Below are positions 5,263 through 35,710 of a DNA stretch of 64,000 nucleotides, piece by piece. A model generated the notes under the pieces. The model saw only the letters and a program-made list of their open reading frames with translations. It had not been told where the DNA came from and did no database searches. The position numbers were made by a program, and so were the translations under genes. Numbering within the stretch: position 1 is the first letter of the stretch; each line of letters starts with the position of its first letter. Source of the DNA: Arthrobacter sp. Edens01 (GTDB lineage: Bacteria > Actinomycetota > Actinomycetes > Actinomycetales > Micrococcaceae); NCBI RefSeq assembly GCF_001307035.1, contig NZ_LKIU01000002.1:789088-853087 (forward strand). The letters are read 5' to 3'.

Positions 5263-5880
5263 CTAGAGGTCGAGCAGCTCGACCCCTGCGTCCTCAAGTT
5301 CATCAAGGGCCGCCAGGACGTCCACCTTGTCCAGCCCGCGGCACAGCTCCGGAATGACGTAGGTGGCGTAGCCGGCGGCCACGGCGTCCAGTGCCGTTGC
5401 CTTCACGCAGTAATCAGTGGCCAGGCCTACGATCACCACTTCGTCCACACCGTTGTCCCGCAGCCAGTCGTCCAGGCTGACGGCGTCCTCGTCCGGCTCC
5501 GGCTCCGCGTCGGGGTCGCCCAGCGGAACTTCGACATCCGGGGCCAGAAGCCCTTCGAAACCGGAGTAGGCGGCCTCGTACTGCCCTTTGCGGAAATACG
5601 CGTCGATGAACTCCGTGTCCAGGTCCGGGTTCAGTGCGGCTCCGTGGGTCCCTGCCACGCAGTGCACCGGCCAGGAATCCCGGAAGTTCGGATTGTCGGA
5701 GAAATGGCTGCCGGGTTCAATATGCCAGTCCTGGGTTGCTGCGACGACGGCGTACCGGTCCCGTGAGGTCTCGATGTAGTCGCTGATTTCCGCAGCGGTG
5801 TCATTGCCTCCCGGCACGGCCAGGGAACCGCCCTCACAAAAGTCGTTCTGGACGTCAACCACAATCAGTGCACGGGTCAT
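5263..5880 (-). CDS. pncA: Nicotinamidase, isochorismatase family (205 aa)
   Basis: Hydrolyses nicotinamide to nicotinate and ammonia in NAD salvage. The catalytic triad is visible as D9 (IVVDVQNDF), K98 (YFRKGQ) and C158 (LATDYCVKA). The metal site is D51, H53, H59 (TQDWHIEPGSHF) and H73 (PVHCVAG). Length matches PncA. Residues 116-132 form an acidic insertion (GDPDAEPEPDED) near the expected active-site lid; its meaning is unclear. The ATG overlaps the pncB stop by 4 bases, so both enzymes of the route nicotinamide to nicotinate mononucleotide are made from one mRNA. Confidence 0.93.
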   Translation of the reverse strand: MTRALIVVDVQNDFCEGGSLAVPGGNDTAAEISDYIETSRDRYAVVAATQDWHIEPGSHFSDNPNFRDSWPVHCVAGTHGAALNPDLDTEFIDAYFRKGQYEAAYSGFEGLLAPDVEVPLGDPDAEPEPDEDAVSLDDWLRDNGVDEVVIVGLATDYCVKATALDAVAAGYATYVIPELCRGLDKVDVLAALDELEDAGVELLDL

Positions 5881-7211
5881 CGGGTTTCCTCCTCGAATTC
5901 GGTCGGGATCACAGGCTCGCCGCGCTGCAGGCGGTAAGCAGGCGCCGGCAGTTCAACCAGCGAAGCATCGTGCCGGACACGGGCGCGGGTGACAGCCTCC
6001 GGCCCGGTCCAGCCTTCCTGTACAACGCCGTCGGAGACGAAGGTCTCCAGCAGCTCGCGGTCATCGCCGTCGTTTGCCGGACGGGCGCCGACGCCGACTA
6101 CCTCCGCCACGGCGCGGCCGCGTTCGTTCAGGCGGCGGAGGGCGTATTTGCGTCCGCCCAGGGAAGCCTTGTTCTTCGCGGCCTTGGCAACGGAGACGAA
6201 GTTGCCGTCCGAGCCTTCCCGGCTGACCAGCTTGTAAACCAGCCCCGCAGTTGGCGCGCCGGAACCCGTCACCAGGGACGTGCCGACGCCGTAGGTGTCC
6301 ACGGGCGCGGAAGCCAGGGCTGCAATGGCGTATTCATCCAGGTCTGAGGTCACCATGATCCGGGTCGACGTGTTCCCGAGATCGTCCAGCAGCTCGCGGA
6401 CCCACTGGGCCTGGGCCACCAGGTCACCGGAGTCCAGCCGGACGCCGCCCAGCTTGTGCCCGGCAACGGCAACGGCGTTGCGGACGCCCTGTTCGACGTC
6501 GTACGTGTCCACGAGCAGGGAGGTATTGAGTCCCAGCGAAGCGGTCTGGGCCCTGAACGCATCCATCTCCGAGTCATGGAGCAGCGTGAAGGAGTGCGCT
6601 GCGGTGCCGACGGTCTTGATGCCGTAGCGAAGCCCGGCTTCCAGGTTGGAGGTGCTGTCGAACCCGGCGATGAACGCCGCACGTGCGGCGGCGACGGCGG
6701 CTTCTTCATGGGTGCGGCGCGAGCCCATTTCAATGCACGGACGGCCCCCGGCGGCGCTGGTCATCCGGGAAGCGGCGGAGGCAATCGCACTGTCATGGTT
6801 GAGCACGGACAGGATCAGGGTCTCAAGGATGCAGGCTTCACCGAAGCTGGCTTCGACCTGCAGGATGGGGGATCCGGGGAAGTACACGTCCCCTTCCGCG
6901 TACCCGGTGATGGTGCCGGTGAAACGGAAATCGGCCAGCCAGGCCAGCGTCCGGTCATCCACGACGCCGGTGGACCCGAGGAAATCCAGCTGGGCTTCCT
7001 CGAAACGGAAACTGCCCAGTGCCTCGAGCAGCCTGCCGGTGCCGGCGACTATCCCGTAGCGCCGTCCATCCGGCAGCTTCCGGGCGAAGGCCTCGAACAC
7101 TGAGCGCCTCTCGGCGGTCCCGGCGTGCAGGGCGGCCTGCAGCATGGTCAGTTCGTAGTGGTCGGTGTACAGGGCAGCATTTGGCTGCTGCCACGCGGTG
7201 GTAGCGTTCAC
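5877..7211 (-). CDS. pncB: Nicotinate phosphoribosyltransferase (444 aa)
   Basis: Converts nicotinate, PRPP and ATP to nicotinate mononucleotide, the committed step of the Preiss-Handler pathway. The N-terminus reads LYTDHYELTMLQ and the middle has GTAAHSFTLLHDSE, which contains the family's phosphorylatable active-site His. VRLDSGDL and GVGTSLVTGSG further on are phosphate-binding segments. I place the start at GTG 7211, because a TANNNT box ends 7 nt upstream and the family N-terminus begins about ten residues later; an upstream start at 7259 would add a 16-residue tail rich in Arg/Gly. First gene of the pncB-pncA operon, divergent from clpS. Confidence 0.93.
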   Translation of the reverse strand: MNATTAWQQPNAALYTDHYELTMLQAALHAGTAERRSVFEAFARKLPDGRRYGIVAGTGRLLEALGSFRFEEAQLDFLGSTGVVDDRTLAWLADFRFTGTITGYAEGDVYFPGSPILQVEASFGEACILETLILSVLNHDSAIASAASRMTSAAGGRPCIEMGSRRTHEEAAVAAARAAFIAGFDSTSNLEAGLRYGIKTVGTAAHSFTLLHDSEMDAFRAQTASLGLNTSLLVDTYDVEQGVRNAVAVAGHKLGGVRLDSGDLVAQAQWVRELLDDLGNTSTRIMVTSDLDEYAIAALASAPVDTYGVGTSLVTGSGAPTAGLVYKLVSREGSDGNFVSVAKAAKNKASLGGRKYALRRLNERGRAVAEVVGVGARPANDGDDRELLETFVSDGVVQEGWTGPEAVTRARVRHDASLVELPAPAYRLQRGEPVIPTEFEEETR

Positions 7212-7218
7212 ACCCAAA

Positions 7219-7224
7219 ACTCTA
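7219..7224 (-). promoter_or_regulatory. -10 box TAGAGT, leaderless promoter of pncB-pncA
   Basis: On the minus strand TAGAGT ends 7 nt before the GTG at 7211 (gap TTTGGGT, no ribosome site). This supports both the start choice and leaderless translation. The clpS promoter lies about 70 bases away in the opposite direction. Confidence 0.55.
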
Positions 7225-7290
7225 ACCCGCCGTCCCCGGCCTGCGCCGCACCCGCTCACCTGTTGGCCGCACCCGCACGGCGGGCCAAAC

Positions 7291-20293: not shown

Positions 20294-21619
20294 ATGAGTC
20301 CTGAACCTTTCACGCAGCAGGCCGGCACCGAGTCCGGTATCTCCACGAACAGCGCTTCCGCTGTCGACGCACCGCCGGCCAAGGGCCGATATGCCCGGAT
20401 CTATGAAATCGCCGGCGCTGCCTTTTTCTCCGTGGCCTTCCTGGCCAGGCTTCCCCTGGCAATGCTGACCATCGGGGCCCTGACCCTCGTTACCAGCATT
20501 ACCGGGTCCTATGCGCAGGGCGGCTTTGCTGCCGGAGCGGTGGGCGTTGGATCGGCGCTTGGGGGTCCGGCCCTGGGGTATCTGGCGGACCGCATAGGAC
20601 AGCGGCCTGTGCTGCTGGGTGCCGCCGTCGCGAATCCCCTGCTCATTGTTGCCACTCTCCTGACTGCATCCCAGCTGCCCGACGGCGGGCCGCTCCTAGC
20701 CGTGCTGGCGGCAGCCTTCGGCATGGGTGCCACCGGCCCGCAGGTCGGTCCGCTTGCCCGCGTGCGCTGGATGGCACTCACCGCCAAGGACCGCAGCGGA
20801 CGGGAAATGGGCACGGCCCTGTCCTACGAGAGCATGGCCGACGAACTGAGCTTTGTGCTGGGCCCGGCTTTGGTGGGCCTGCTCGCCGCAGCTGTCGCAC
20901 CCTGGCTTCCGCTGGCCCTGGCAGCTCTCCTGTCCGCCACGATGGTTAGCGCCTTTGCCTTCCACCGCTCGGCTGCTGCCGTCGTCCCGTCCCGCCGCAG
21001 GGACAGCCGCGCTGCAGCGGCGGAGAGCGGAACGCCGGAACGCGGCGGTGTGTCCTGGGGGCTTCTGGCCCTTCCCGTCCTTGGGATGGTGGCCATGGGA
21101 ACCTTCTTCGGCGCCACGCAGGCGAGCCTGGCGGCCTTCGGCGGCTCATTCGGCGCAGCGGATACCGCAGGCCTCCTGTATTCGGTCATGGGCATCAGCT
21201 CGGCTGCCGCGGCACTTTCAGTTGCCTTCTGGCCGCAGCGCCTGAGCCAGTCCGTGCGCTGGGTTCTCTCGGCTGCAGCGATGACCGGGGGCACTCTGCT
21301 GCTGCTCCTGCCCTCGGGCATCCCGGGGATGCTCCTGGCGCTCTTTGTTCTCGGCATCCCGGTGGGGCCCACCATGGTCAGTATCTTCGGCATTGGTGCT
21401 GAACTTGCCCCGCGGCACCTGATGGGTACGTTCATGACGCTGCTTGCCAGCGGAACTGTTGCCGGCACTGCCGTCGGGTCGGGCCTGGCGGGGCCGCTGG
21501 CGGAAGAGTTTGGACACCCGGCAGCTTTCCTGGTGAGCGTTGGCGCGGCATGCGCGCTCCTGATCCTGGGCCTGGCGTCTGCTGTGGCTGTGCACAGGGT
21601 TAAGAGCAGGCAAGTCTAG
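20294..21619 (+). CDS. MFS transporter (441 aa)
   Basis: Twelve-helix major facilitator protein. The first 35 residues are hydrophilic and Ser/Thr-rich, then helices run from about 42 to 430. The loop after TM2 reads LGYLADRIGQRPVLLG, a good match to MFS motif A. A central cytoplasmic loop (SRRRDSRAAAAESGTPERG, about 232-250) divides the two halves. The layout resembles sugar-efflux/YcaD-like members, but the substrate is unknown. ATG at 20294 follows the sbcC terminator by 17 bases, so its promoter is not obvious and may overlap the terminator. Confidence 0.82.
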   Translation: MSPEPFTQQAGTESGISTNSASAVDAPPAKGRYARIYEIAGAAFFSVAFLARLPLAMLTIGALTLVTSITGSYAQGGFAAGAVGVGSALGGPALGYLADRIGQRPVLLGAAVANPLLIVATLLTASQLPDGGPLLAVLAAAFGMGATGPQVGPLARVRWMALTAKDRSGREMGTALSYESMADELSFVLGPALVGLLAAAVAPWLPLALAALLSATMVSAFAFHRSAAAVVPSRRRDSRAAAAESGTPERGGVSWGLLALPVLGMVAMGTFFGATQASLAAFGGSFGAADTAGLLYSVMGISSAAAALSVAFWPQRLSQSVRWVLSAAAMTGGTLLLLLPSGIPGMLLALFVLGIPVGPTMVSIFGIGAELAPRHLMGTFMTLLASGTVAGTAVGSGLAGPLAEEFGHPAAFLVSVGAACALLILGLASAVAVHRVKSRQV

Positions 21620-21710
21620 CCCAGCCCGGGCCGGTTCCAGAGACGCCCTGCGGCTGCGGGGTAACATTACGTACGCCGATCTCGATTGTGTTTCCAATCA
21701 CATCTTTTCC

Positions 21711-21739
21711 TTGACGGAGGGTGACGCATTTCATAGCGT
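21711..21739 (+). promoter_or_regulatory. Promoter of the NitT/TauT-type ABC operon (TTGACG-17-TAGCGT)
   Basis: TTGACG (21711-21716) and TAGCGT (21734-21739) are separated by 17 nt, the best two-box promoter in the window. It would give a leader of about 95 nt containing a CCCCGT/ACGGGG hairpin (21797-21817) just before AAAGGAG (21828-21834), the ribosome site of the binding-protein gene. Confidence 0.55.
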
Positions 21740-21841
21740 TTACCTGTAGAACTTCTGTTCAACATGCGAACATCCGCAGTTGCAGGACGTTCTTGGCCCC
21801 GTACCGTTCAAACGGGGTTTCCCACCTAAAGGAGCGCACTC

Positions 21842-22828
21842 GTGAAACGTACTGTCCCCGTTGTTATTGCCGCTACGGCGGCCCTGGCCCTTAGCGCCTG
21901 TGGCGGCGGGTCCCTTTCCGGTGACGACAGCTCCAGTGCCGCTGCAGGCTCGTCAGACCTGACCGCACTTTCTGTCGGTGTGATCCCGATCGTCGATACC
22001 GCACCTATCTGGCTGGGCAAGGAACAGGGTTTCTTCGAGGACGAAGGCATTGACCTGGACATCCAGACCACTACGGGCGGGGCGGCTGCCGTACCCGGCG
22101 TTGTCAGCGGTGATTTCCAGTTTGCCTTCGGCAACGTCGTCTCTGTGATGGTTGCAAATGACAAGGGCCTGAACCTCGAATTCGTTTCCAACGGAAACTC
22201 GACCACCGGCGATACCACGTCCGACTTCGGCGCAGTGGTAGTGCCGGCGGACTCCGACATTGAGACCGCAGCGGACCTCGCAGGCAAGACCGTGTCCGTT
22301 AATAACCTCTCCAACATCGGCGACACGACCATCCGCAAGGTCGTTGAAAACGCCGGAGGCGACCAGGAAAGCATCAAGTTCGTTGAAATCCCGTTCCCGG
22401 ACGCTCCTGCAGCGATCGAGGGCGGCCAGGTTGATGCGGCCTGGATCCTGGATCCCTTCCTGACCCAGTCCGTGGATGACGGTGCCCGGGTGATTGCTTA
22501 CAACTTCGCCGAAACCCACCCCAACCTGGACATCTCCGGCTACTTCACCTCGCAGCAGTATGCGCAGGAGAACCCGGAACTCGTAGAGAAATTCACCGCA
22601 GCGATGAAGAAGTCGCTGGAGTATTCACAGGAGAACCCGGACGCAGTCCGGGAAATCGTCGGCACGTACACCAAGATCGATGAAGAGATGCGCGCCAAGA
22701 TGATCCTGCCCACCTTCCGCCCCGGCTTCGACCGCGAAGGCCTGACCGTGCTCGGCGAAGCTGCAGCTAGTTACGGCACGCTGTCCAAGGCTCCTGATCT
22801 GGACGCAATGCTGCCGGCGCAGGACTAG
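21842..22828 (+). CDS. ABC transporter substrate-binding lipoprotein, NMT1/SsuA-like (328 aa)
   Basis: Exported lipoprotein of a NitT/TauT-type importer. The signal peptide ends in LALSAC with lipidated C20, followed by a Gly/Ser-rich linker to about residue 40. The binding domain starts TALSVGVIPIVDTAPIWLGKEQGFF, the pattern of NMT1/THI5-like and aliphatic sulfonate or nitrate binding proteins, with VDAAWILDPFL at about 198-208. The ligand may be an organosulfur compound, pyrimidine or other small molecule; the sequence does not decide. GTG at 21842 has AAAGGAG 7 nt upstream. First gene of a four-gene operon. Confidence 0.85.
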   Translation: MKRTVPVVIAATAALALSACGGGSLSGDDSSSAAAGSSDLTALSVGVIPIVDTAPIWLGKEQGFFEDEGIDLDIQTTTGGAAAVPGVVSGDFQFAFGNVVSVMVANDKGLNLEFVSNGNSTTGDTTSDFGAVVVPADSDIETAADLAGKTVSVNNLSNIGDTTIRKVVENAGGDQESIKFVEIPFPDAPAAIEGGQVDAAWILDPFLTQSVDDGARVIAYNFAETHPNLDISGYFTSQQYAQENPELVEKFTAAMKKSLEYSQENPDAVREIVGTYTKIDEEMRAKMILPTFRPGFDREGLTVLGEAAASYGTLSKAPDLDAMLPAQD

Positions 22829-22869
22829 CGTCAGTACCATTCCGCCCGGTCTGAAAAGAACGAGAGCAT

Positions 22870-23658
22870 ATGAAATCCGCTAAACGTCTTCCCACGGGAC
22901 CGTTGCTGGGTGTGGCAGGAATCCTCGGGTTCCTGCTCACCTGGGAACTCATCCCGCGGCTCGGGATAGTCAACCCGCGCTTCCTTCCGCCGGCCAGCGA
23001 GGTGCTGGGTGTCTTCGTAAGCAACCTGGGTCTTGGAGCCTTCTGGGCTGCTGTCCTGGACACCATGACGGGCTGGTTCCTTGGCCTGTTGATTGCCACG
23101 GTCGCTGCAGTGGTCCTGGGCCTGCTTATCGGTTCCAGCAACTTCCTGCGCAAGGCGACCAACTCCACCATTGAGTTCCTGCGTCCGATTCCGTCCGTGG
23201 CACTCATCCCGCTTGCGGTGCTGCTGTTCGGGCTTCGGCTTGAGTCGACGCTGCTGCTTGTGATCTATGCGTCCTTCTGGCAGGTCCTGATCCAGGTGCT
23301 CTACGGGGTGGCCGACGTCGATCCCGTAGCCAATAACACCGCCAAGAGCTTTGGCCTGGGCCGGCTGGCACGCATCAGGTATGTCGTATGGCCGACCACC
23401 CTTCCGTACCTCATGACCGGCGTCCGGCTTGCCGCAGCCGTTGCACTCATCCTGGCCATCACGGCGAGCCTGATTATTGGTTCTCCGGGGCTGGGCAAGG
23501 AAATTGCCAACGCACAGTCCGGCGGCGCAATCGCCCAGATGTATGCCCTGGTGCTCACCACCGGTGTGCTGGGCATCCTCATCAATATGGGAATGCGTGT
23601 GATTGAACGCCGGACCCTGTCCTGGCACAGCTCGGTCCGCGGGGAGGTCGTAGTATGA
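22870..23658 (+). CDS. ABC transporter permease, BPD type (262 aa)
   Basis: Inner-membrane subunit with six hydrophobic segments. The EAA loop that docks on the ATPase is NNTAKSFGLGRLARIRYVVWP (about 156-176). A GAxx-like pore segment, LAAAVALILAITASLIIG, follows. It matches SsuC/TauC-type permeases in size. The start is preceded by AAAGAACGAGAG. Its stop overlaps the next permease's ATG by 4 bases; the two probably form a heterodimer. Confidence 0.88.
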   Translation: MKSAKRLPTGPLLGVAGILGFLLTWELIPRLGIVNPRFLPPASEVLGVFVSNLGLGAFWAAVLDTMTGWFLGLLIATVAAVVLGLLIGSSNFLRKATNSTIEFLRPIPSVALIPLAVLLFGLRLESTLLLVIYASFWQVLIQVLYGVADVDPVANNTAKSFGLGRLARIRYVVWPTTLPYLMTGVRLAAAVALILAITASLIIGSPGLGKEIANAQSGGAIAQMYALVLTTGVLGILINMGMRVIERRTLSWHSSVRGEVVV

Positions 23659-24428
23659 ACACGCTCAAAAAAGCCGGCTACCTGGTAGGTCTTCCGGTAC
23701 TGCTGATCTTCATCTGGTGGTTCAATACGCTCGGCAGCACCAATTTCTTCGTGCCCAAGCCGGGAATGCTCGTCGATAAGCTGCTGACCGTGTGGACGGG
23801 GGAGCGGCTGGTGCAGGATGTCCTGCCGAGCCTCATCCGTTTGGTCACCGGCATCCTGCTGGCGATCGTCCTCGGTACGGTCATGGGCATTCTCATCGGC
23901 ACCACCCGGTGGCTGCGGAGCCTGCTGGAACCCGTGCTGGAGTTCTTCCGCGCCATTCCGCCGCCGGTGCTGATCCCCGTTTTGATGCTCCTGATCGGTG
24001 TCAACGACCAGATGAAGGTAGCCGTGATCGTCTCGGGCTGCATCTGGCCGGTACTGCTGAACACCATCGAGGGCGTCCGCGCCGTTGACGGGGTGCTCAG
24101 CGATTCAGCCCGGACCTTCCGCATCGGCGGATTCGCCCGGCTGCGTTACCTGGTTCTTCCGAGTGCCAGCCCCCAGATCATGGCCGGCATCCGTCAGTGC
24201 CTGTCCATTGGCCTGATCCTGATGGTCATTTCGGAGATGTTCGCTTCCTCCGAAGGCCTGGGTTTCACCATCGTTCAGTTCCAGCGTTCCTTTGCCATTC
24301 CCGAAATGTGGAGCGGCATTGTGGTCCTTGGCCTGATCGGTGTGGCCATGTCATTTTTGTTCCAGTGGTCCGAGCGCCGCATCCTTGGCTGGTACCACGG
24401 CTTGAGAGAGGTAGAACATGCAGAGTAA
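23655..24428 (+). CDS. ABC transporter permease, BPD type (257 aa)
   Basis: Second membrane subunit of the same importer, a paralogue of the preceding one. It has six hydrophobic segments and an EAA loop with SDSARTFRIGGFARLRYLVLP (about 149-169). EFFRAIPPPVLIPVLMLLIG in the middle is typical of SsuC-like proteins. It overlaps the upstream permease by 4 bases and the ATPase gene by 11 bases, so the subunits are made in a coupled way. Confidence 0.88.
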   Translation: MNTLKKAGYLVGLPVLLIFIWWFNTLGSTNFFVPKPGMLVDKLLTVWTGERLVQDVLPSLIRLVTGILLAIVLGTVMGILIGTTRWLRSLLEPVLEFFRAIPPPVLIPVLMLLIGVNDQMKVAVIVSGCIWPVLLNTIEGVRAVDGVLSDSARTFRIGGFARLRYLVLPSASPQIMAGIRQCLSIGLILMVISEMFASSEGLGFTIVQFQRSFAIPEMWSGIVVLGLIGVAMSFLFQWSERRILGWYHGLREVEHAE

Positions 24429-25329
24429 TCCCACGGAAGGCCAGGTCCAGCCGCTGCTGTCGGTCCGCGGCGTCCAGAAGATCTACAAGGTCGATGCCGG
24501 GGAGATCGAAGCTGTCCGCAACCTGACCTTCGACCTGCGTCCCGGTGAACTGGTCTGCCTGGTAGGCCCGTCAGGCAGCGGCAAGACCACACTCCTGAAG
24601 ATCATTGCCGGGCTGATGGCCCCGACTTCCGGTGAAGTCGTCCTCGCTGGCAAGAAGGTCACCGAGCCGCCGAAGGACATGGCAGTTGTCTTCCAGGAAT
24701 ACGGGCGCAGCCTTTTCCCCTGGATGACAGTCCGCGGCAACGTGGAACTGCCGCTCAAGAACGCAGGCATAGCCAAGGGCGAGCGGAACCAGCTCGTGGA
24801 TGATGCGCTGGAGGCCGTGGGCCTGGCACACGTGCCCACCAGCTATCCGTGGCAGCTCTCCGGCGGTATGCAGCAGCGCGTGGCAATTGCCCGGGCCGTT
24901 GCCTACCAGCCGAAGGTGCTGCTCATGGACGAGCCGTTTGCCGCCGTCGACGCCCAGACCCGTGCCGACCTGGAGGACCTGGTCCGCAGCGTCTGGGAGA
25001 AGCTCGGCGTGACGATCCTGTTCGTTACCCATGACATCGATGAATCCGTCTATCTGGGGGAGCGGGTGGTGGTGCTCTCGAGCTCACCGACCGTGGTCCA
25101 GGAAGACATCGTCATTGACCTGCCGGAGAAACGGGACCAGCTGACCACCCGTTCACTGCCGCGCTTCGTGGAGCTGCGGAACCACGTGTACGAGCAGATT
25201 CAGATTGCCAAGCAGAACAAGGGAGCAGTATCTGCTGAACCTGCCGCCCCCCGGACGTCGGTGCCTCATGGTGTCGCGGCAACCCACGGAGTGCTGGCAG
25301 ACGGCGGCGGAGGGGCTGACGCTTCCTAG
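24418..25329 (+). CDS. ABC transporter ATP-binding protein, SsuB/TauB-like (303 aa)
   Basis: Energizing subunit. Walker A is LVGPSGSGKTTLLK (about 49-62), the Q-loop is VFQEYGRSLFPW, the signature is LSGGMQQRVAIARA (about 146-159), Walker B is KVLLMDEPFAAVD (about 166-178) and the H-loop is LFVTHDIDE (about 201-209). All catalytic residues are present. The last 45 residues are an Ala/Pro-rich extension (PAAPRTSVPHGV...) not usual in the family. A long hairpin follows the stop. Confidence 0.93.
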   Translation: MQSNPTEGQVQPLLSVRGVQKIYKVDAGEIEAVRNLTFDLRPGELVCLVGPSGSGKTTLLKIIAGLMAPTSGEVVLAGKKVTEPPKDMAVVFQEYGRSLFPWMTVRGNVELPLKNAGIAKGERNQLVDDALEAVGLAHVPTSYPWQLSGGMQQRVAIARAVAYQPKVLLMDEPFAAVDAQTRADLEDLVRSVWEKLGVTILFVTHDIDESVYLGERVVVLSSSPTVVQEDIVIDLPEKRDQLTTRSLPRFVELRNHVYEQIQIAKQNKGAVSAEPAAPRTSVPHGVAATHGVLADGGGGADAS

Positions 25330-31393: not shown

Positions 31394-31431
31394 CGTTCCC
31401 GGTTCAAAGCGCCTGGAACCCAGGGTGATGA

Positions 31432-31454
31432 GTTAGAGTCGGCATGACTCTTAC
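31432..31454. promoter_or_regulatory. Candidate NrtR operator overlapping the nad operon promoter
   Basis: GTTAGAGTC and GACTCTTAC form a 9-bp inverted repeat with one mismatch and a 5-nt spacer (GGCAT). The left arm contains a TAGAGT -10 box (31434-31439), so a bound repressor would block RNA polymerase. It lies 47 bases before the nrtR ATG. The link to NrtR is by position only. Confidence 0.55.
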
Positions 31455-31500
31455 TTAGCTCCTGCGGGCACAGGCCCGCGTCCCGGGAAGGCCACGACTG

Positions 31501-32235
31501 ATGAGCCCCAGATATGCCAACGTCTCGGAGCGGGAGCAGGAACCGCCGTCGCTGGCCATCTCAACGGTGATTTTCGCGCTCCGCCCGGATCCTGACACGG
31601 GCAGCCTGACGCTCTGGCTGCCGCTCGTCCGTCGGATCCGGCAGCCTTACCTCGATCTGTGGGCACTGCCGGGAGGGCCGCTGCAGCCCAGCGAATCACT
31701 CCAGGATGCCGCAGCGCGCAACCTGCAGGAGACCACCGGGCTGCAGCCAAGCTATCTGGAACAGCTGTACGCCTTCGGCGGCCCGGACCGCTCTCCGTCC
31801 CCCAGGGTTGTCTCGATCGTGTACTGGGCCCTGGTGCAGCCGGACGAGGCCGCCCTGGCCCGGCAGGACGAAAACGTTGCCTGGTTCCGGGCGGACAAAG
31901 TTGGAACGCTGGCCTTTGACCACAACCAGATTGTTGACTATGCGCTCTGGCGGCTCCGGAACAAGCTTGAATACGGCACCGTGGCCTATGCGTTCCTGGG
32001 TCCCACTTTCACCCTGGCGCAGGTCCGGGAGGTCTACGAGGCTGTTCTGGGGCGTGGCCTGGACCCTGCCAACTTCCGCCGCCAACTCCAGGCCTCCGTG
32101 CACATTGAACCCACCGACGGATACCTTCAGGGCGGCCGCCACCGCCCGCCGCGGCTGTACCGGTATGCGGGCCCGGATCCCCGGACGGATTCATTCCCCG
32201 CGAGCCAGGCACGCCCTCAAGCAACGGAGCACTGA
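31501..32235 (+). CDS. nrtR: NrtR-like Nudix-domain transcriptional regulator of NAD synthesis (244 aa)
   Basis: N-terminal Nudix-like domain (about 18-150) fused to a C-terminal winged helix (about 155-235: LEYGTVAYAFLGPTFTLAQVREVYEAVLGRGLDPANFRRQL). The Nudix box is degenerate: GGPLQPSESLQDAAARNLQETTGL has RNLQET where active enzymes have REUxEE, so it is expected to bind an NAD-related ligand such as ADP-ribose without efficient hydrolysis, as NrtR proteins do. ATG at 31501 follows GGGAAGG. The gene heads an operon with nadA, nadC and a desulfurase; the nadA ATG lies one base after its stop. Confidence 0.9.
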   Translation: MSPRYANVSEREQEPPSLAISTVIFALRPDPDTGSLTLWLPLVRRIRQPYLDLWALPGGPLQPSESLQDAAARNLQETTGLQPSYLEQLYAFGGPDRSPSPRVVSIVYWALVQPDEAALARQDENVAWFRADKVGTLAFDHNQIVDYALWRLRNKLEYGTVAYAFLGPTFTLAQVREVYEAVLGRGLDPANFRRQLQASVHIEPTDGYLQGGRHRPPRLYRYAGPDPRTDSFPASQARPQATEH

Positions 32236-32236
32236 G

Positions 32237-33544
32237 ATGAACGAAACGATCCAGCCCTCCGGCGGCAGCGTTGCCACCAGGAACGCCCTGCTTTCCGGAC
32301 CCGGGGAAGCACAGGTGGTGTCCGCAGCGTCGACCTGCACACCGGGACTGGCCGCCGCGCCCTGGGACTTCGACGCCGCACCCGGCTACGGCCCCGGGGC
32401 TTCCCTGTCAGATCCGGTCCCTGCCGGAACACCCCGGCAGGATGAGCTCCCGCAGGAATACCGGCAGGCGACGGACACGGAGCTGGAAGAACGGATTGCC
32501 AGGGCGAAGGATGCGCTGGGGGAGAGGGCCGTGATCCTGGGGCACTTCTATCAGCGCGACGAGGTGGTCCGGCACGCAGACTTCGTGGGGGACTCGTTCC
32601 AGCTGGCAAGGGCAGCCAGGAGCCGGCCGGAGGCGGAAGCGATCATCTTCTGCGGCGTGCACTTCATGGCCGAAACTGCTGATCTTCTTTCCGGCCCTGA
32701 ACAGGCAGTGCTGCTCCCGAACCTGGCGGCCGGATGTTCAATGGCGGACATGGCCGATGCCGATTCTGTCGCTGAATGCTGGGAGCAGCTGACAGCGCTC
32801 TACGGCGAAACCCCGGACGCAGACGGACGGCAGCAGGTCATACCCGTGACCTACATGAACTCCTCCGCTGCATTGAAGGCCTTCTGCGGAGAGAGCGGCG
32901 GGATCGTCTGCACCTCCTCCAACGCGGCGGCTGTCCTGGAATGGGCCTTCGAACGCGGCTGCCGGGTGCTGTTCTTTCCGGACCAGCATCTGGGGCGGAA
33001 CACGGCCAGGGCCATGGGTATTCCGCTTGAGAAGATGCCCATGTGGAATCCCCGCCTGCCCCTGGGCGGCAACACCGCCCAGTCCCTGCTGGAAGCCAGG
33101 GTGCTCCTGTGGAACGGGTTCTGTTCGGTGCACAAGCGCTTTACCGTGGACCAGATTGCCAGGGCACGCGCAGAACATCCCGGCGTCCGGGTGATCGTGC
33201 ATCCCGAATGTCCCATGCCGGTGGTCGATGCCGCGGATGAATCCGGGTCCACCGACTACATCCAGAAAGCCGTCGCCGCAGCGGAGCCCGGAAGTACGTT
33301 CGCGGTTGGCACGGAGATCAACATGGTGAACCGGCTTGCCGCGCAGTACCCGGAGCACACCATTTTCTGTCTTGATCCCGTCGTCTGCCCCTGTTCCACG
33401 ATGTACCGCATCCACCCCGGCTACCTTGCGTGGGTTCTTGAGGGCCTGCTCGACGGGCAGACCCGCAACCGGATCACAGTTCCCGGACACACCGCTGCGG
33501 CCGCCCTCACCGCACTGGAACGGATGCTGGCGGTCCGGCCGTGA
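32237..33544 (+). CDS. nadA: Quinolinate synthase A (435 aa)
   Basis: Condenses iminoaspartate with dihydroxyacetone phosphate to quinolinate, using a [4Fe-4S] cluster. Likely cluster cysteines are in IIFCGVHFMAE, NGFCSVHKRF and DPVVCPCSTMYRIHP. LGHFYQRDEVVRHADFVGDS, VTYMNSSAALKAFC and FFPDQHLGRNTA are substrate segments. An N-terminal extension of about 85 Ala/Pro-rich residues precedes the core (E. coli NadA has 347 residues). ATG at 32237 is one base after the nrtR stop. The TGA overlaps a GTG that opens the nadB remnant. Confidence 0.95.
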   Translation: MNETIQPSGGSVATRNALLSGPGEAQVVSAASTCTPGLAAAPWDFDAAPGYGPGASLSDPVPAGTPRQDELPQEYRQATDTELEERIARAKDALGERAVILGHFYQRDEVVRHADFVGDSFQLARAARSRPEAEAIIFCGVHFMAETADLLSGPEQAVLLPNLAAGCSMADMADADSVAECWEQLTALYGETPDADGRQQVIPVTYMNSSAALKAFCGESGGIVCTSSNAAAVLEWAFERGCRVLFFPDQHLGRNTARAMGIPLEKMPMWNPRLPLGGNTAQSLLEARVLLWNGFCSVHKRFTVDQIARARAEHPGVRVIVHPECPMPVVDAADESGSTDYIQKAVAAAEPGSTFAVGTEINMVNRLAAQYPEHTIFCLDPVVCPCSTMYRIHPGYLAWVLEGLLDGQTRNRITVPGHTAAAALTALERMLAVRP

Positions 33545-33609
33545 CAATAGCCGTGGCCGGCAGCGGCATAGCCGGAAAGCTTTCCAGACTAGTGAAGGGA
33601 CACAGATGA
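33541..33609 (+). pseudogene. nadB: nadB remnant: 22-codon stub of L-aspartate oxidase
   Basis: GTG at 33541 overlaps the nadA stop by 4 bases (GTGA) and opens a frame reading VTIAVAGSGIAGKLSRLVK..., closed by TGA at 33607-33609, which overlaps the nadC ATG (ATGA). VAGSGIAG is the FAD-binding GxGxAG motif that begins L-aspartate oxidase, whose gene usually lies exactly here in nadA-nadB-nadC operons. After that motif similarity ends abruptly, so about 500 codons appear to have been lost while both 4-base junctions were kept. The identification from 12 residues is strong by position but short. Confidence 0.65.
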
Positions 33610-34562
33610 CCAACACAGAGCCAATGAGCGATTCGGAGCGCGGCTTCGGCACCGGGGTGCTGCCCCCGGACGGCGCAGCGCAGCCTATGCCGCTTCCCGT
33701 CACCGAAGTGGAAACAGTAGTCACGGCGGCGCTCGCAGAAGACTCACCTTGGGGCGACCTCACCTCACATGCGCTGGTTCCTGAAGCCGCGGAGGTTACT
33801 GCCTTCCTCACGGCGCGGGAAGAAGGCATTTTTTGCGGTGAACAGATTCTTGAGGCGGCCTTCCGGCTCGCCGGCCCGGGCACTTCCGTCATGTGCCTTG
33901 TGCGCGACGGCGAACGGTTCGACGCGGGCGGAATCCTCGCCGAGGTCTCCGGCCCGGCCCGGAGCGTCCTCACAGGGGAAAGGGTGGCACTGAATCTGGT
34001 GCAGCGGCTCTCAGGCATCGCTACCCAGACCGCCCGCTTCGTAGCGCAGGCAGCTGGAACCCGGGCCCGTATTGCGGACACGCGTAAAACAACACCGGGA
34101 CTGCGGGCGCTTGAACGCTATGCGGTGCGCTGCGGGGGCGGGTTCAACCACCGCTACTCGCTCTCCGACGCCGTCATGGCAAAGGACAACCACCTGGCCG
34201 TTATCGCCGCAGCAGGGATGGACCTGGCAACGGCGCTTCGCCAGGCAAAGGACAGGCTGCCCCACACAGTGCACTTCGAGGTGGAGGTGGACTCGCTGGA
34301 CCAGATCGAACCGGTGCTGGCAGGAGGAGCAGATACGGTGCTTCTGGACAACTTCAGCATCGAAGACCTCCGGCGCGGGGTGGCGGTTGTCAACGGGCGG
34401 GCACTTGTGGAGGCCAGCGGGAATGTCCGGCTCGACACCGTTGCAGCGATTGCGGACACGGGCGTGGACATCATCTCCGCAGGTGCCCTGACCCACAGCG
34501 TCCGTGCCCTGGACCTGGGACTGGACATCCGCGCGACGGTGCCTCAGGCGCAGCCGCGATGA
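33606..34562 (+). CDS. nadC: Nicotinate-nucleotide pyrophosphorylase (carboxylating), 318 aa
   Basis: Converts quinolinate and PRPP to nicotinate mononucleotide. The family segments EDSPWGDLTSHAL, LTGERVALNLVQRLSGIATQTA, ADTRKTTPGLRALERYAVRCGGGFNHR and VEVDSLDQ are in order; the Arg, Lys and His residues of the quinolinate site are visible in the third. A 35-residue Ser/Pro-rich N-terminal tail precedes the core; ATG at 33606 has GAAGGGA 5 nt upstream. It overlaps the desulfurase ATG by 4 bases. Confidence 0.95.
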   Translation: MTNTEPMSDSERGFGTGVLPPDGAAQPMPLPVTEVETVVTAALAEDSPWGDLTSHALVPEAAEVTAFLTAREEGIFCGEQILEAAFRLAGPGTSVMCLVRDGERFDAGGILAEVSGPARSVLTGERVALNLVQRLSGIATQTARFVAQAAGTRARIADTRKTTPGLRALERYAVRCGGGFNHRYSLSDAVMAKDNHLAVIAAAGMDLATALRQAKDRLPHTVHFEVEVDSLDQIEPVLAGGADTVLLDNFSIEDLRRGVAVVNGRALVEASGNVRLDTVAAIADTGVDIISAGALTHSVRALDLGLDIRATVPQAQPR

Positions 34563-35710
34563 TCTACTTCGACGCCGCAGCCACAACACCGGTTCGTCCG
34601 GAAGTACTGGCAGCCCTGGCCCCGCTGTACACCAGCGACTTCGGCAACCCGTCCAGCGTCCATTCAGCCGGTGAGACCGCTGCCCGCGCCCTGGACTACG
34701 CCCGCCGCACTGCAGCGGGTGTCCTGGGCTGCCGTCCCGGAGATATCGTCTTCACCTCAGGCGGAACCGAGTCGGACAACCTTGCCATCAAGGGCCTGGC
34801 GCTCGCCGCCCCGCAGGGACGGCACATTGTCTCCAGCGCCGTCGAGCATCCGGCCGTCCTCGAATCCCTGGCCTACCTTCAGCGCCTGCACGGGTTCCGG
34901 ATCACCCTGGTTCCGGTGGACGGGACCGGACGGGTTGATCCCGCTGGAGTTGAAGCTGCGCTGACGCGTGACACGACTCTGTGCACCATCATGACGGCGA
35001 ACAACGAGGTAGGAACCCTGCAGCCGGTCAGCGAGATTGCCGAAGCCTGCCGCGCCCGGGGAATACCGTTCCACACCGACGCCGTGCAGGCTGCAGGCTG
35101 GCTGCCCGTGTCCGTGGCCGGCACCGGCATCGACGCGCTGAGCATCTCCGGGCACAAACTCGGTGCTCCCAAGGGCTGCGGACTGCTCTACGTCCGCGGA
35201 GTGCTGCCGCTGGAACCGCTGATCCACGGCGGCGGGCAGGAACGCGGCCGGCGCGCGGGCACCGAGAACGTGGCAGGAGCAGTTGCGCTGGCCACCGCAC
35301 TGTCCCTGGCCGAGCAGGAGCGCCCGGCCGCCGCTGAGCGGGCCCGGAAACTGCGGGACTACCTGATCGACACGGTGCTGGAACAGGTACCGGGCGCACT
35401 GCTGACCGGCCACCGCACCGAACGGCTGCCGGGACACGCCTCATTCTGCTTCCCGGGTACGAGCGGCGAAGCCGTGCTCCTGGAAGCCGAGCGGGCCGGG
35501 GTGCTCTGCTCCTCGGGGTCGGCGTGCGCCTCCGGGGCGGACGAACCTTCCCCCGTGCTCACGGCAATGGGCCTGGACCGGGAAACGGCACAGACCGCCG
35601 TCCGCCTGACCTTTGCCCCTACTGTGCGGGAGAACGAGGTGGCACTGGCCGCCCGGGCACTCAGCGGTGCCGTGAAACGCCTCCGGGACCTGCAACAGGC
35701 GCCGTCGTAG
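34559..35710 (+). CDS. Cysteine desulfurase, NifS/IscS type (383 aa)
   Basis: PLP enzyme that releases sulfur from cysteine. The PLP lysine is K200 in SISGHKLGAPKG, the active-site cysteine C323 in SSGSACASG (short class-I-like loop), and TSGGTESDNLAIKG and HTDAVQAAGW are cofactor segments. It is the last gene of nrtR-nadA-nadC, overlapping nadC by 4 bases; in other bacteria a NifS-like protein in the nad operon serves the NadA Fe-S cluster, which is the likely role here. It is not in an isc/suf cluster. Confidence 0.93.
   Translation: MIYFDAAATTPVRPEVLAALAPLYTSDFGNPSSVHSAGETAARALDYARRTAAGVLGCRPGDIVFTSGGTESDNLAIKGLALAAPQGRHIVSSAVEHPAVLESLAYLQRLHGFRITLVPVDGTGRVDPAGVEAALTRDTTLCTIMTANNEVGTLQPVSEIAEACRARGIPFHTDAVQAAGWLPVSVAGTGIDALSISGHKLGAPKGCGLLYVRGVLPLEPLIHGGGQERGRRAGTENVAGAVALATALSLAEQERPAAAERARKLRDYLIDTVLEQVPGALLTGHRTERLPGHASFCFPGTSGEAVLLEAERAGVLCSSGSACASGADEPSPVLTAMGLDRETAQTAVRLTFAPTVRENEVALAARALSGAVKRLRDLQQAPS

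Follow-up and report, generated by a model that had tools for sequence, protein, structure and literature searches.

The window analysed here is the whole 64,000-nt stretch of DNA from Arthrobacter sp. Edens01 (genome G000). It carries an operon in the order nrtR, nadA, a stub of 22 codons, nadC and a nadS-like gene, together with the niacin salvage genes pncA and pncB.

5263-5880, reverse strand: pncA (NF008623, 145.2 bits, below the cut-off of 174)
5877-7259, reverse strand: pncB (TIGR01513 and NF006698, above cut-off)
31431-31455, forward strand: putative NrtR operator AGTTAGAGTCGGCATGACTCTTACT, upstream of nrtR
31501-32235, forward strand: NUDIX regulator of the nrtR/ndnR type, at the head of the operon (NrtR_WHD PF21906 and NUDIX PF00293, both above cut-off)
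32237-33544, forward strand: nadA, quinolinate synthase, intact (NF006884 and TIGR00550, above cut-off)
33541-33609, forward strand: near-certain nadB deletion scar of 22 codons (GTG to TGA), its first 12 codons corresponding to the nadB start
33606-34562, forward strand: nadC, quinolinate phosphoribosyltransferase, intact (TIGR00078, above cut-off)
34559-35710, forward strand: nadS-like cysteine desulfurase (Aminotran_5, above cut-off)

The best NCBIfam models for the nadS-like protein are of the NifS/IscS type, all under their own cut-offs. The stub start overlaps the nadA stop in GTGA and the stub end overlaps the nadC start in ATGA, the two 4-base overlaps that a sequence-only reading of the window had described, and a Shine-Dalgarno-like GAAGGGA for nadC, read by eye, sits within the stub. 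In each of the 20 operons that we compared, nadA is preceded by a homologue of the NrtR-type regulator. The pncA-pncB pair is 26 kb from the stub, in agreement with the same reading, and positions 20294-25329 hold an MFS transporter and, after it, a probable ABC importer with an NMT1/THI5-type binding protein.

Anatomy and origin of the nadB scar

The Edens01 operon was compared with those of 19 relatives, of which G022, G025 and G005 are the nearest nadB-positive congeners. In these three, a full nadB begins at the same nadA overlap, and the nadA-nadC gap is 1642-1676 nt. Their nadB start is LSIAVVGSGIAG and the stub start is VTIAVAGSGIAG; 10 of 12 residues match when both start codons are read as Met, and 9 of 12 letter by letter. 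The G022 product is an L-aspartate oxidase by TIGR00551 (above cut-off). In Edens01 the nadB start with the FAD-binding GxGxxG motif is found at the nadA overlap as a remnant only. Because the nearest nadB-positive congeners start their full nadB alike at the same overlap, it is nearly certain from these alignments that the 22-codon frame is a scar of nadB, and the intact N-termini of the relatives bear out the likeness of its first 12 codons to a nadB start that had been noticed earlier. Across the 20 operons, the nadA-nadC gap measures 1438-1783 nt in 16 and is short in four: 62 nt in Edens01, 86 nt in G003, 155 nt in G023 and a direct ATGA overlap in G036.

In G022, G025 and G005, nadB ends in its own TGA, followed by a spacer before nadC. 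The last three nadB codons and the stop of G022 align to AAG CTT TCC AGA in Edens01, although the aligned region is short and diverged and this is the least secure point of the scar anatomy. The old TGA position reads AGA, and the stub frame runs on into the ATGA of nadC. As aligned, the sequences show a deletion in the nadB frame that ended just before nadC, with ~534 codons gone relative to the 549-codon nadB of G022. The earlier proposal that about 500 codons were lost with both junctions intact holds for the in-frame loss and for the nadA-side junction, which is ancestral, but not for the nadC side, where the ATGA overlap appears to be new.

Since the stub overlaps both neighbours with its start and stop and holds the Shine-Dalgarno-like site for nadC, it might be regarded as a functional short gene, either a leader or a small protein, selected for itself. 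However, it matches the nadB start of relatives, it contains rare codons, and the stubs of G003 and G023 differ from it in length and tail; nor were the same 69 bases seen as a conserved short gene, a possibility that the sequence-only reading had raised. We regard a function of this kind as very improbable. An assembly or culture artefact is less probable still, as the assembly has 10 contigs and a completeness rating of 100%, the scar lies ~47 kb within one of these contigs, and comparable deletions occur in other assemblies, one of them (G003) a single contig.

In G003, ~28 nadB codons run in frame straight into the last codon and the native stop; a TCACCG-like sequence at the join is common to both sides. 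G023 retains 12 nadB codons, which continue in frame into a 3' tail and the native stop. The genus therefore holds three different nadB deletions (Edens01, G003 and G023), all in frame; the chance of this would be 1 in 27 if frame were irrelevant, which is suggestive only. It is possible that the scars of Edens01 and G023 go back to one shared ancestral event, with nadB regained in the G022 group, as both 5' breakpoints fall after codon 12. The two genomes are never sisters in four gene trees (14, 14, 14 and 11 genomes), and support at the nodes parting them is 76, 77, 89 and 96.

Recurrence of nadB loss and the search for a replacement

Both nadA and nadC were present at 44 of the 50 loci examined out of 80 listed, a set that includes MAGs and may lack near records of the window; because 43 of those 44 have nadB, its presence is ancestral. 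We then turned to a family sample of 295 genomes, 226 of which have nadA. Genomes were called nadB-less when no nadB stood between nadA and nadC and their TIGR00551 matches did not exceed the SdhA level. Operons were read for the 53 nadA-positive genomes with weak TIGR00551 scores (best E worse than 1e-118, listed by eye), among which nadB stood beside nadA in 13 and was absent in 39, while G209 (71% complete) was left out. A low TIGR00551 score alone was not used as proof of absence, because of those 13. As better-scoring genomes were not read singly, nadB is absent in at least 39 of the 226. These belong to genera g1, that of Edens01 (2, namely Edens01 and G003), g4 (7), g6 (1, G215), g9 (1), g33 (2), g34 (19), g36 (6) and g38 (1); G023, also of g1, is outside the sample.

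Several genera thus carry nrtR-nadA-nadC-nadS without nadB, and in g34 (19 genomes read) and g36 (6 read) every nadA-positive genome read is nadB-less, mostly nadX-less too, and keeps nadA, nadC and nadS. A NadA+NadC+NadS tree of 80 operons (a chosen sample of 41 without nadB and 39 with; a single FastTree run, support not examined) requires 10 nadB losses if the gene was never regained. Judged from these sequences, nadB loss is recurrent in the relatives of Edens01, often without a known replacement enzyme. An uncultured Agrococcus MAG (L156) has nrtR-nadA-nadC-nadS without nadB, and Agrococcus sp. KRD186 (L152) has nadB. In G215 (L225, 4091-4311) a 221-nt nadA-nadC spacer shows no recognisable nadB start or stub.

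A copy of nadB elsewhere in the genome, one of the options considered in the sequence-only reading, was not found: the sole TIGR00551 match in Edens01 scores 367 bits (cut-off 452.75), and we rejected it as nadB and assigned it to SdhA by this score and, by eye, by its SdhB and membrane-subunit neighbours. The aspartate dehydrogenase gene nadX provides a known route to iminoaspartate without NadB. PF01958 (Asp_DH_C) detects it in 16 of 78 genomes, comprising 13 of 39 nadA-positive, nadB-negative genomes, 2 of 27 nadB-positive and 1 of 12 nadA-negative ones; the 39 tested here are the nadB-less set except that G023 replaces G215, whose nadX test was run separately. Systems with nadX in place of nadB are therefore represented by those 13 genomes, and the other 26, including Edens01, lack it. 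It accompanies the nadB losses in g4, g9 and g33 and is present in G066 (g38, nested in g34), but occurs in only 1 of 19 g34 and 1 of 6 g36 genomes. PF01958 has no match in Edens01, G003 or G023, and the best Edens01 match to a profile of 11 NadX proteins is partial (23.4 bits, one third of the model covered). NadX, the alternative enzyme suggested earlier, was consequently rejected as the NadB replacement in Edens01. Over 29 genomes, the 11-sequence profile gave a full match in G207 only. The nadX of G207 (L098, 3565-4395), the only one among the 19 g34 genomes, has 29-35% identity to the ten other NadX aligned; our guess is a separate gain.

Other routes and signals were also considered. PF06052 (3-hydroxyanthranilate dioxygenase, of the kynurenine route to quinolinate) matched in none of 33 genomes, though the control also matched in no genome. 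Gene calls were made at ten nadB-less loci, and among the neighbours in G136 and G093, the two for which translations were read by eye, no obvious candidate enzyme was seen. The operator occurs at one place only in the Edens01 genome (C2:820518-820542, the window starting at C2:789088) and is likewise single-site in each of five other genomes with up to 3 mismatches allowed (reversed control, 0), so that none of the six genomes searched has a further NrtR operator, which could have pointed to the missing enzyme. Taken together, the pattern may reflect an iminoaspartate route in Micrococcaceae that is neither NadB nor NadX and would make nadB dispensable, hence about ten excisions from an operon that is maintained in other respects, in several genera as well as in Edens01; we rate this broader proposal as plausible, at somewhat under an even chance.

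Continued use or early decay of the pathway

The sequences show that a deletion removed nadB, kept its start overlap with nadA, held the reading frame and stopped just short of nadC, while nrtR, nadA, nadC, nadS and the operator stayed intact. We propose that the operon is still translated as a coupled unit, nadA-scar-nadC-nadS, and still used, the scar serving only to hand ribosomes on to nadC. The iminoaspartate for NadA would be made by neither NadB nor NadX but, for instance, by another dehydrogenase or oxidase; oxaloacetate and ammonia are a less likely origin. That Edens01 carries a nadB scar in a still-used operon supplied in this way seems to us an evenly balanced proposition. The competing explanation is that loss of nadB ended de novo NAD synthesis, that niacin is salvaged through PncA and PncB, and that nadA, nadC and nadS are uneroded relics. 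We give it a substantial probability, though short of one half.

Several observations support early decay. Within g1, 17 of 29 genomes have no nadA match, and pathway loss is accordingly well tolerated in the genus. In G005 (L035) nadA is split into two overlapping frames with nadB present, another way in which pathway loss has begun within this genus. pncB is present in 62 of 62 genomes tested, including all 29 of g1, and therefore niacin can be salvaged. These three points count against a bypass of NadB, as do the failure to find a candidate enzyme, the lack of a second operator site in six genomes and the missing stub in G215, where loss occurred without nadX. In all, five tip losses lack nadX (Edens01, G003, G023, G215 and the Agrococcus MAG), which favours early decay.

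Signs of decay were then sought in the remaining genes. Between Edens01 and G022, dN/dS is 0.089 for nadA and 0.085 for nadC, and for the nadB-positive pair G022-G025 it is 0.100 and 0.112, respectively; close g34 pairs give 0.09-0.10 for nadA. In distant g34 and g36 pairs the nadA and nadC values rise to 0.26-0.45, which speaks against continued use, but nadS is raised as well in those pairs (0.27-0.48). Edens01 shows no deviation at 191 near-invariant NadA columns and none at 79 NadC columns (40 sequences). At 307 near-invariant columns in 80 operons, deviations number 0 in Edens01, 0 in G003 and 1 in G023. The mean is 1.54 (median 1) in nadB-less operons versus 1.00 (median 0) in nadB-positive ones, compared without a significance test; this small excess is in line with early decay and counts against a bypass. 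The highest values, in G036, G113, G061, G154 and G183, lie mostly on long branches, as judged by eye.

The scar itself behaves differently. Two of its three Ile codons are ATA, versus 5 of 218 in 14 window genes (P=0.0016), and it has a V-to-A change at a residue common to G022, G025, G005 and G023. The operator is recognisable by eye, with few changes, upstream of nrtR in the 12 nadA-positive congeners. By sequence, then, the scar has drifted, whereas NadA, NadC and the operator of Edens01 show no decay. This contrast and the three in-frame deletions of the genus argue against early decay and favour a bypass, as does the stability of the nadB-less state in g34 and g36, where nadA, nadC and nadS are kept. 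On the other hand, the absence of decay in Edens01 may reflect only a recent loss of nadB. On about even terms, we slightly favour the bypass.

Comparison with known systems

Leaf isolates offer a comparison: in Table 1 of PMC9666465, nadA, nadB and nadC are each found in 0% of 5 niacin-auxotrophic isolates, compared with 83-87% of 30 prototrophs. These auxotrophs lost the whole set, not nadB alone, which favours a bypass where nadA and nadC remain. In a literature search that covered few subscription papers, the text available described neither nadB scars nor Micrococcaceae that lack both nadB and nadX. An operon that holds nadA, nadC and nadS but neither nadB nor nadX would mark a missing enzyme in NAD synthesis, and the genus of Edens01, with sister species with and without nadB, offers a clean background for finding it. 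If decay is the true explanation, a first step towards NAD auxotrophy has been caught with its scar. Either way, in genome-based predictions nadA and nadC alone do not equal prototrophy, and missing nadB does not equal auxotrophy.

Corynebacterium glutamicum, whose genome is not known to have an annotated nadB, is a close comparison, and Teramoto in 2010 reportedly found that its nadA, nadC and nadS mutants need nicotinate. In our searches its control genome was matched by TIGR00551 (position relative to the cut-off not given) and was not among the three control genomes matching for nadX; Corynebacterium flavescens (L160) has nadB within the operon. The C. glutamicum ndnRnadACS operon is described in PMC11995493 as required for de novo NAD synthesis, and this ndnR-nadA-nadC-nadS precedent favours a bypass; PMC1590026 conflicts with a nadB-less account, placing nadA next to nadB and nadC in this species. 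Edens01 has the same order as the actinobacterial nrtR-nadA-nadB-nadC-nadS operon around the scar, with nadB deleted. Like C. glutamicum, it has an NrtR-type regulator, nadA, nadC and nadS contiguous in one operon with no working nadB between; unlike C. glutamicum in this comparison, it retains a nadB scar, and some of its sister species have a full nadB.
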